A stretch of 64,000 nucleotides of DNA from positions 38,208,672 through 38,272,671 of the forward strand of contig OX031063.1 of NCBI GenBank assembly GCA_943736015.1, in the 5' to 3' direction. Below the pieces are notes generated by a model, which saw only the letters and a program-made list of their open reading frames with translations, was not told the origin of the DNA and made no database searches. Of this stretch, positions 35,450 to 61,185 are shown piece after piece. Both the position numbers and the translations under genes were made by a program. How positions within the stretch are numbered: the stretch's first letter is position 1; each line of letters begins with the position of its first letter. This DNA comes from Tridacna crocea (taxonomy: Eukaryota; Mollusca; Bivalvia; Cardiida; Cardiidae).

Positions 35450-36027
35450 TTGTACGTTGTTAAACGCCATTTTCAACATTATTTGTAATATCGCGGCGGC
35501 TAGTGCAACTGTCCATGTTTTCCGGAAGATTCTTTTACCAGTACTTCGCACAATATTCTTTTCAAGCCACTGGCTGCTTTTCCACATAACCATCATCGAA
35601 ACAATGATCAGCAGGGAAATAGTAATGAGTCCTGCCGCAATGGGCCCGCTCGGGTGGCTCAGTGGTGAGCGTGTCGGACTCATGACCTGGTGGTTGTGAG
35701 TTCGATACCCGGCTGAGGCGAACTTTCTTTCCGGCGTATTTTCGCCTCTGACCTCTGCTGAAGCATGTGAGAAAAGTAGTCGGTGGCTTTGGAAAGAAAG
35801 TAGTGTTAGTGCCGGTATGAGAAAGCCAGGACACACATGTGCGTCACCGACCGCCATGGTATGACCTTAGCTGTTAAAGTGGCGTTAAACCCCAATACAA
35901 CCAACCAACCAACCTGCCACAATGACTCATCAAACCTAGGAAAGAAATCAGCCAAACTAGGGGTACGGACAAGGGACTCTTTGTTCTCAAGTCCTCTACG
36001 CGACCAGCTGCTCTACTGGGCCCGGCA
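35450..36027 (-). mobile_element. antisense SINE interrupted by the previous element
   Basis: The body (35450-35642) is shared with 40650-40867 (CATTTTCAACATTATTT, CCAGTACTTCGCACAA, CATCGAAACAATGA). The antisense tRNA-like head is on the far side (35925-36027, GACCAGCTGCTCTACTGGGC). The two parts become one SINE when the 35643-35912 insertion is removed. Confidence 0.7.
35643..35912 (+). mobile_element. tRNA-derived SINE inserted in another SINE
   Basis: Complete copy of the 553-type SINE: head GGGTGGCTCAGTGGTGAGC, B box GAGTTCGATACCC, body, ACCGCCATGGTATGACC end and (CCAA)n tail. Flanked by a 12-bp target duplication CCTGCC(G/A)CAATG at 35631-35642 and 35913-35924. Confidence 0.85.
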
Positions 36028-45439: not shown

Positions 45440-45990
45440 AGGGCGTACGACCCAAAGACTCCGGAAAGGTATTAAATTACTCCACGCGACATCTTCCTGT
45501 TGATAAAACAAGAGAACGGAAAATAAAACAAAGATTTAGTATTGTCTATTATTGAATGCAAAATTGTTACGCTTTTGTTCAAATTATTTGTTATCCTAAA
45601 ACGAGATATTGAGGAATGTGTGTTTCTTTTGTGAAGGTTATCGTAGGTTCATCCCATATTTTCCAAAAACAATGCAAAAGTTACAAATGCCACGGATGAT
45701 AGTCGTCGTTTTACATGTTTACAGTGTCAGTTGATTATTATCCCTGATTCTAACCCGTATCAGCAATAACTAAAGGTTTAGACCAAGAGCACCATCTACC
45801 TGGTCGACGCTCTACGATACCTTGGAAAATACTGAGACCTCAGAAATACTTTATGCAAGGAGATTAACATTATGGCCATCTACAACAAGCTGAAAAAAAA
45901 TTGTTACACAACTCATATATCCCCCAAAATCTAGTAAAAGGGTTTTTTTTTATTCTTGTCGTTGTTGTGGTTTTCGACTCCGTCGTTGTT
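45440..45990. other. no gene seen
   Basis: AT-rich flank of the 42-bp minisatellite. Confidence 0.5.
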
Positions 45991-45997
45991 GTTGTTG

Positions 45998-46533
45998 TTG
46001 CCAGCTCCCTTGTTGTTCTTGTCGGTGTCGTCGTTGCTTCTGCCAGCTCCGTTGTTGTTCTTGTCCGTGTCGTCGTTGCTTCTGCCAGCTCCGTTGTTGT
46101 TCTTGTCCGTGTCGTCGTTGCTTCTGCCAGCTCCGTTGTTGTTCTTGTCCGTGTCGTCGTTGCTTCTGCCAGCTTCCTTGTTGTTCTTGTCGGTGTCGTC
46201 GTTGCTTCTGCCAGCTTCCTTGTTGTTCTTGTCGGTGTCGTCGTTGCTTCTGCCAGCTTCCTTGTTGTTCTTCTCCGTGTCGTCGTTGCTTCTGCCAGCT
46301 TCGTTGTTGTTCTTGTCGGTGTCGTCGTTGCTTCTGCCAGCTCCGTTGTTGTTCTTGTCCGTGTCGTCGTTGCTTCTGCCAGCTTCCTTGTTGTTCTTGT
46401 CCGTGTCGTCGTTGCTTCTGCCAGCTTCCTTGTTGTTCTTGTCAGTGTCGTCGTTGCTTCTGCCAGCTTCCTTGTTGTTCTTGTCCGTGTCGTCGTTGCT
46501 TCTGCCAGCTTCGTTGTTGTTTTTGTCAGTGTT
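45998..46533. repeat. 42-bp minisatellite, open in four frames
   Basis: About 12-13 units of 42 bp (GTTGTTCTTGTCCGTGTCGT CGTTGCTTCTGCCAGCTCC type). Because 42 is a multiple of three and stops are absent, two plus and two minus frames stay open over 190 codons. The minus-strand frame 45931-46593 would read AGRSNDDTDKNNKE repeated 12 times. There is no signal peptide or domain, so I list it as a repeat rather than a gene. Confidence 0.85.
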
Positions 46534-46648
46534 GTTGTAAACTTTGCCGCCGCTGTTGACGTCGATATTGTTGGTGCCATTGGCAAGTATCACATAATAA
46601 GTCCTGTCGGCAATTATGCATAATTACAATTACAAGGAGTTAGGAGCC

Positions 46649-59710: not shown

Positions 59711-59945
59711 TTGTTTAATTTCAAAGGTATTGTTTATACTTTAAGAGAAAAAATCGCCGTCAGAAATGTGATATTTTCGAGAAAATCCATACATGTAGGT
59801 GCCGTGGGTTGGTAAATAGGGCGTTAGCCCTTTGATTGATATTTGTTTACCTGTCGACGCCACCGGTTGCCTATTGGGACATATAGTTTATCGCATCGTT
59901 ACATGCGACATAAAATCAAAATATCATGTAAATGACTATTTAGTA

Positions 59946-60151
59946 TGTTACGGGAGACCACTCCTTCCTGCATGGCATACTCCCGATTTAAATACAATAC
60001 CTGGCTACTGCGTCAGGGAGATATCTCTTTGGCTCAGTGGTTAGGGTATTGGCTTTGCGTCCGGGAGTTCGGAGTTCGAATCCCGCTCCGATCCATATTT
60101 CTGCCATGCATTTATTCATTTGTTTCTTTGTTACGGACTTCGTTCGTAAGA
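59946..60151 (+). repeat. left LTR of the miniature element
   Basis: It contains a tRNA-like stretch (about 60022-60094) with an A-box-like TGGCTCAGTGGT and a B-box-like GTTCGAATCCC, the internal RNA polymerase III promoter elements of tRNA genes. A full cloverleaf was not established. Confidence 0.9.
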
Positions 60152-60169
60152 TGGGGGCTCGTCCGGGAT
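60152..60169 (+). other. primer-binding site, tRNA-Pro type
   Basis: TGGGGGCTCGTCCGGGAT is complementary to the 3' end of tRNA-Pro as used by some animal retroelements and gammaretroviruses. It directly abuts the left LTR. Confidence 0.85.
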
Positions 60170-60256
60170 TGGCCATTGAGCCATTAATCCCATTTGTTGT
60201 CCAAAATCGGACTTCCTGCCTAATAAGGCTTTGAGTCATCAATAAATGATGACTTT

Positions 60257-60267
60257 AAGAGGGGGTG
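60257..60267 (+). other. polypurine tract
   Basis: AAGAGGGGGTG immediately precedes the right LTR, where plus-strand priming is expected. Confidence 0.75.
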
Positions 60268-60473
60268 TGTTACGGGAGACCACTCCTTCCTGCATGGCAT
60301 ACTCCCGATTTAAATACAATACCTGGCTACTGCGTCAGGGAGATATCTCTTTGGCTCAGTGGTTAGGGTACTGGCTTTGCGTCCGGGAGTTCGGAGTTCG
60401 AATCCCGCTCCGATCCATATTTCTGCCATGCATTTATTCATTTGTTTCTTTGTTACGGACTTCGTTCGTAAGA
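60268..60473 (+). repeat. right LTR of the miniature element
   Basis: Same 206 bases as the left LTR apart from one substitution in the tRNA-like part (position 60371). Confidence 0.9.
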
Positions 60474-60489
60474 AGTAGTTTCGGTTGAA

Positions 60490-60575
60490 AAGCAGTGGGA
60501 ATCGAACTCTAACCCGTAACTGGCCCACGGTTTTACAGTCGCAAGTCCCATGCTGTACATGGGCTCTTGGTTGCA
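60490..60575 (-). repeat. antisense tRNA-like fragment beside the miniature LTR element
   Basis: Minus strand reads GAGTTCGATTCCCACTGC (B-box-like) downstream of GCCCATGTACAGCATGGGAC. Confidence 0.4.
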
Positions 60576-60604: not shown

Positions 60605-60837
60605 TCAGCTCTTTCCAAACGACAAAATTATACACTGGTCCAAGTTGAAAGCATTTGCGGACGACAAAATAAATGCGACTGAAGAATAATCGAAATTTGA
60701 TTTTGGGAAGGGTTGAAAAAATTATGGGAAAAGGAGAAAATGCTGGTTTCCAGCAATATCTCGTTTTCCCACAATGTTTTCAGAAGGCTTCTTTCTCAGG
60801 ATCGTGAAAACCCGGGATTTTTGGTAAAACAGTTTAA
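60605..60837 (+). mobile_element. PAL-A, full copy
   Basis: Left TTAA lost, right TTAA present; second core arm mutated near the centre (AGCAATATCTCG). Confidence 0.75.
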
Positions 60838-60967: not shown

Positions 60968-61185
60968 TTAACCCTTTCCCAAATGGCAAATTTTGGTCCA
61001 GACCAAATTGAAAGCATTTTACAGATGACAAATTAACAGTTGCTAAAAAGATGATTTTTCTATACGATTTGGTAGAAAACATTGTGGGAAAAGGAGAAAA
61101 TGCTGGTTACCAGCATATCGCATGTTTTCAAAAGGCTTCTATTCCTGATCCGTAAAAAAACAGGGATTGTTTGGGAAAGGGTTAA
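60968..61185 (+). mobile_element. PAL-A with shortened second arm
   Basis: 218 bp, TTAA at both ends; the second arm jumps from CCAGCAT to ATGTTTTC, removing most of the palindrome. Confidence 0.78.

Follow-up and report, generated by a model that had tools for sequence, protein, structure and literature searches.

The 64,000-nucleotide stretch of Tridacna crocea DNA analysed here, called the window in what follows, contains a miniature LTR retrotransposon (TRIM) of 528 bp at positions 59946-60473, composed of a 206-bp LTR, a 116-bp interior and a second 206-bp LTR (Table 1). The paired LTRs with one difference, the primer-binding site (PBS), the purine tract and the AGTA duplication described in the initial annotation were all found again at the locus, and the difference between the LTRs is a T/C mismatch at LTR position 104. 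We take the PBS to be of the tRNA-Pro type, which is also how it was named in that annotation. The element termini are TG...GA and not TG...CA, and the same was observed in all 27 single copies retrieved from the genome. A search for four TATA/poly(A)-type words found none in the LTR, and an AATAAA is located at 60241 in the interior.

Table 1. Features of the TRIM copy, in window coordinates
Feature	Position	Strand	Source
Left target-site duplication, AGTA	59942..59945	.	
Left LTR, 206 bp, begins TGTTACGG, finishes CGTAAGA	59946..60151	+	
A-box-like TGGCTCAGTGG, left LTR	60030..60040	+	box-pair pattern scan
B-box-like AGTTCGAATCC, left LTR	60073..60083	+	box-pair pattern scan
PBS TGGGGGCTCGTCCGGGAT, starts at the first base past the left LTR	60152..60169	+	
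Interior, non-coding, 116 bp	60152..60267	+	
Polypurine tract (PPT) AAGAGGGGGTG, last base abuts the right LTR	60257..60267	+	
Right LTR, 206 bp, 1 mismatch to the left LTR	60268..60473	+	
A-box-like TGGCTCAGTGG, right LTR	60352..60362	+	box-pair pattern scan
B-box-like AGTTCGAATCC, right LTR	60395..60405	+	box-pair pattern scan
Right target-site duplication, AGTA	60474..60477	.	

Further copies were searched for in the window's own assembly (1.05 Gb, 31 contigs), and 41 places at 99-100% identity were obtained; the first look gave 1204 candidates, of which 40 were scored. The 28 loci retrieved cover 29 of these 41 places. All 27 single copies among them are flanked by a matching 4-bp duplication; L005 and L006 have common flanks, so the set represents 26 independent insertions, and the first base of the duplication, counted by eye, is A in 21 of 26. 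In the remaining locus (L028), three LTRs alternate in tandem with two interiors, and ATAA flanks the array on either side. Counted genome-wide as exact matches, which miss decayed or variant sites, the CGTAAGA-PBS junction occurs 1882 times and the 22-base LTR start 3492 times, and the reversed control of each gave zero. A search with the interior by itself produced no hits, which probably reflects the skipping of common words and carries no information on rarity. Since the duplications are present in 27/27 single copies and the LTR-PBS junction recurs throughout the genome, the TRIM is not a local duplication, and the possibility, raised in the initial annotation, that the two repeats are a tandem duplication unique to this locus was rejected. 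The same junction count speaks against the other possibility raised there, namely that copies elsewhere lack the primer site and the purine tract. In the first 16.4 Mb of contig C1, the 100 LTR starts listed fall into 71 groups (24 pairs, one group of three, one of four and 45 singles); 39 of the 45 singles have no exact junction nearby, and 9 of the 42 junctions in this interval have no exact LTR start nearby. By eye, six tandem arrays were recognised among the 100 junctions at the head of the list, which all lie on C1. The genome search with the LTR proposed earlier thus yielded pairs and tandem arrays, but the 39 singles without a junction are either solo LTRs or decayed copies, because only exact matches were counted.

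The family was recently active. In the 26 best-scoring copies (the 28 loci minus the tandem L028 and the duplicate L006, a selection biased to young copies), every LTR pair differs at zero or one position and the mean distance to the majority sequence is 0.36%, which agrees with the recent origin initially proposed. When 20 places on contigs C1-C4 were sampled, 10 kb at each and 200 kb in total, two copies turned out to be full-length (97.5 and 96.4%) and a third was old (about 81%), and there was no separate solo LTR. The boxes are intact in both sampled full copies, and their flanks are compatible with the duplications CATA and GTGT, the latter being ambiguous as it sits inside a GT run. Moreover, a variant LTR end led to three further old loci (L050-L052). 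Their anatomy is unchanged, the LTR identity is 71-87%, and some of the LTRs are truncated or in tandem. Another locus, L047, was considered as a relative with longer LTRs. This was rejected, because the locus is an old copy and another repeat splits its LTR between the two boxes. The splitting repeat is palindromic (GGAAAAGGAGAAAATGCTGGTTACCAGC...) and frequent; it is present at window positions 60740-60781 and 61075-61116 and in several copies in L047.

In each LTR, box A and box B are separated by 43 bp, start to start, a spacing of the tRNA type. The strictest box-pair pattern, scanned on both strands of the window, matches only in the two LTRs. A single strand was scanned in each of 60 simulated 64-kb sequences (first-order Markov), and the pattern did not occur in any of them. 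The tRNA-like block reported for each LTR was therefore recovered as far as its boxes are concerned, and the tRNA models tried gave no match. ARAGORN called no tRNA in the window element or in its relatives, the Rfam tRNA model had no match at E up to 10 in the window element or, with E up to 1, in five loci holding relatives, and the folding of the block was ordinary when compared with shuffles (z of -0.18, 0.72 and -1.03). The negative ARAGORN and Rfam searches and the ordinary folding suggest that the block is a promoter-like relic rather than a tRNA gene, and that the term tRNA-like fits the boxes only.

The boxes are well retained in the family. Both boxes were detected in both LTRs of 25 of the 26 young copies, L017 being short of one B match, and in seven older LTR rows from L050-L052, scanned with relaxed patterns, box A was kept in six and box B in five. 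Box B starts with AG and not GG in the young subfamily (AGTTC); when nine LTR rows were compared, the GGTTC form was seen in 4, each of them belonging to L051 or L052. These nine rows (the window copy, L040 and the seven older rows) were aligned with gaps scored as differences; the old LTRs L052c, in which box A is gone through a deletion, and L047, in which the boxes are decayed, were excluded. The mean pairwise column identity was 0.805 for the 38 bases upstream of box A, 0.836 for box A itself, 0.859 for the next 11 bases, 0.547 for positions 107-126 between the boxes and 0.764 for box B. Box A together with the next 11 bp belongs to the best-conserved windows of the alignment (4 of 185 are as good, itself included). 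Taken singly, neither box stands out: 22 of 196 windows equal box A, and for box B the number is 58 of 195. Furthermore, conservation extends beyond the boxes, and the 38 bp upstream of box A exceed box B. A 19-base stretch with box A occurs 5416 times genome-wide, more often than the 22-base LTR start; this fits its higher conservation, but the count could include copies outside this TRIM family. No match to the A-box stretch was found in a scan of viral contigs. In three of the seven older rows a long stretch with a CCTC...GAGG-like arm lies between the boxes, and a shorter one is found in a fourth; the arm may resemble that of tRNAs with a long variable arm. Elsewhere in the window, positions 35640-35910 hold a separate tRNA-type SINE-like sequence with an A box at 35655, a B box at 35699 and an AACC-repeat tail, which scored 14.4 bits with the Rfam tRNA model, under the cut-off of 29.

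Elements of this kind have been published. According to Kojima 2024 (PMC10886601), Helenus (TRIMp3) comprises TRIMs with a tRNA-like sequence in their LTRs, and 51 Helenus families were obtained from pteriomorph bivalves, so the initial supposition that such an element was undescribed in molluscs does not hold. The same source gives 4-bp duplications for animal Helenus, tRNA-Pro among the bivalve PBS types, the box A letters TRGCY...YGG in most families, a conserved box B GGTTC, solo LTRs, and tandem arrays in zebrafish LTR-11_DR (PMC10886601). Resemblance of the block to a tRNA gene or to a tRNA-derived SINE, as judged with Censor and tRNAscan-SE, is another of the published features; ARAGORN and the Rfam tRNA model gave no match for the block examined here. 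The Tridacna TRIM is assigned to Helenus as a new member on its other features. It is 528 bp long with two LTRs and no coding region, its PBS follows the 5' LTR and its PPT precedes the 3' LTR, TGGCTCAGTGG and AGTTCGAATCC lie in the LTR, with box B departing at one base (A in place of G), and the 4-bp target duplication is found in every single copy; the tRNA-Pro PBS and the tandem arrays are further points of likeness. On the other hand, box B of the young subfamily reads AGTTC where Helenus has GGTTC, and the LTR ends here form TG...GA. The comparison with plant Cassandra made in the initial annotation is apt in that a Pol III-type box A/box B block, the tRNA counterpart, lies within a TRIM LTR. 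Cassandra carries 5S rRNA in its LTRs and its transcription terminates within the 5S sequence of the 3' LTR (PMC10886601), whereas the putative promoter here is of the tRNA type, the element has no T run and the Rfam 5S model found no match in it.

Exact tRNA-Pro PBS sites outside the TRIM point to a possible partner. With a preceding base other than A, 738 such sites were counted genome-wide, and the first 12 of them retrieved all belong to one Gypsy family, 11 at 94.9-99.9% pairwise identity and one (L057) at 81-84%. The 29-base context of this family was found at 693 sites. At another 20 PBS sites the preceding base is A without a G before it, and at least 2 of these 20 lie in old TRIM copies (L050 and L052). 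One Gypsy family hence accounts for 693 of the 758 exact tRNA-Pro sites that lack a preceding GA, and another family could hide among GA-preceded sites outside the TRIM junction. It is this result that is new here, and not the kind of element itself. The Gypsy family was recently amplified. Integrase was found ahead of reverse transcriptase and RNase H, with Gypsy-type domains, in two copies, L049 (G000:C2:64993501-65000500) and L065 (G000:C1:12450700-12454500, which follows the L062 site). This is the Gmr1 order (PMC6238403, citing Goodwin and Poulter 2002). The gag of one copy (L049) contains a SCAN domain, and one copy (L038/L049) has a TTGT 4-bp duplication and LTR ends of the form TGTTA...CGTAACA. 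This Gmr1-type Gypsy resembles the TRIM in its tRNA-Pro PBS, in the 4-bp length of its duplication and in its LTR tips; unlike the TRIM, it is protein-coding, has longer LTRs and a PBS five bases past the LTR, and has no LTR homology beyond the tip. When the LTR tips were compared, the anchored similarity was reached by 0/300 shuffles with the last 7 nt and by 81/300 without them. Just past the PBS it was reached by 2/300 shuffles when anchored and by 207/500 in a longer unanchored comparison. Judged from these comparisons, likeness between the TRIM and the Gypsy beyond the PBS and the LTR tip appears to be absent or weak. Kojima 2024 (PMC10886601) likewise inferred a Gypsy mobiliser for Helenus from a common PBS and reported a tRNA-Pro PBS for Gypsy-13_CGi. 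The Gypsy with integrase before reverse transcriptase is the likeliest mobiliser of the TRIM, although a rarer partner element is possible, since counting by exact match misses decayed or variant sites.

On the sense strand of the window copy there is no TTTT, and none was found in the 26 best-scoring copies or in the two sampled full copies. The lack is only mildly unusual: simulating the 322 unique bases reproduced it at a frequency of 0.044. Among the seven older rows, three have a TTTT between the boxes. The first T run downstream of the window copy lies at 60531. We hypothesize that Pol III would bind the boxes in the left LTR and start about 12-20 bp upstream of box A, a distance known from tRNA genes. 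Because the sense strand has no run of four T, Pol III could then read through the entire element and stop at a T run in the flanking DNA, here at 60531. The resulting RNA would have an R-U5 part at both ends. tRNA-Pro would prime the minus strand at the PBS, the strong-stop cDNA would jump to the right LTR, and the PPT would prime the plus strand. Reverse transcriptase and integrase would be supplied in trans by a Gypsy, most likely the populous family with the tRNA-Pro PBS in this genome.

A probable explanation, and the best one for these observations, is that the locus holds a copy of a recently active Helenus-type (TRIMp3) family with putative transcription by Pol III and mobilisation by Gypsy in trans. 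The promoter step is where a competing account differs, while the anatomy and the kind of element would be unchanged. The TRIM could be an ordinary Pol II element whose LTR captured the head of a SINE, in which case the boxes would be passengers and the start of transcription would lie elsewhere. The failure of the block in every tRNA model tried, the conservation upstream of box A and the AATAAA in the interior agree with such a capture, which the SINE-like sequence nearby at 35655 would make easy. However, the boxes are kept in both LTRs of 25/26 young copies and in 6/7 (A) and 5/7 (B) older rows, the positions between them vary (0.547, against 0.836 for A and 0.764 for B), and the search for four TATA/poly(A)-type words found nothing in the LTR, so we regard this account as unlikely. 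For Helenus in general, Kojima 2024 (PMC10886601) states that the Pol III function is not validated.

Two other assignments concern the element as a whole. Its tRNA-like boxes and short length would suit a SINE, a pair of SINEs or a local tandem duplication misread as an LTR element; with 4-bp duplications around 27/27 single copies, a PBS and a PPT in place and 1882 junctions, this is hardly credible. Membership of biv-TRIM was weighed because that element is also a bivalve TRIM with tandem arrays and terminal repeats of about 200 bp; Satovic 2019 (PMC6934838) gives 202-218 bp, a range that includes the 206 bp found here, together with an interior of 77-80 bp, the motif TGATCCCAAAGGAC, solo repeats and tandem arrays, and no canonical PBS identified. 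The accessible part of PMC6934838 has no mention of a tRNA-like block in the terminal repeats. The Tridacna TRIM, by contrast, has a 116-bp interior, a perfect PBS and a different PPT, and TGATCCCAAAGGAC is absent from it at up to 3 mismatches. Membership was rejected on the published description of interior, PBS and motif, and is very improbable.

The Helenus-type reading can be carried further. In a combined form, a TRIM predicted to be transcribed by Pol III would be copied by a Gypsy of the Gmr1 order through the PBS and about 7 LTR-end bases, and the subfamily would have burst after loss of the between-box TTTT enabled read-through. We offer this only tentatively and consider it rather doubtful that both parts hold. 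If true, the PBS and about seven LTR-end bases would suffice for packaging, priming and integration in trans. The Helenus-type family described here is unusually clean and very young, it has thousands of LTRs, and one populous candidate mobiliser occurs in the same genome. Two matters thereby become testable, the Pol III transcription of Helenus and the minimum that a TRIM must have in common with its autonomous partner.

Two minor observations concern the rest of the window. Just right of the insertion, on the minus strand of 60488-60575, a B-box-like GAGTTCGATTCCCAC was noticed by eye, and the box-pair scan returned no A/B pair around it in this interval. The stretch 45868-46623 is repetitive and open in several frames on both strands, and it is coding-like only through its short-period repeat.
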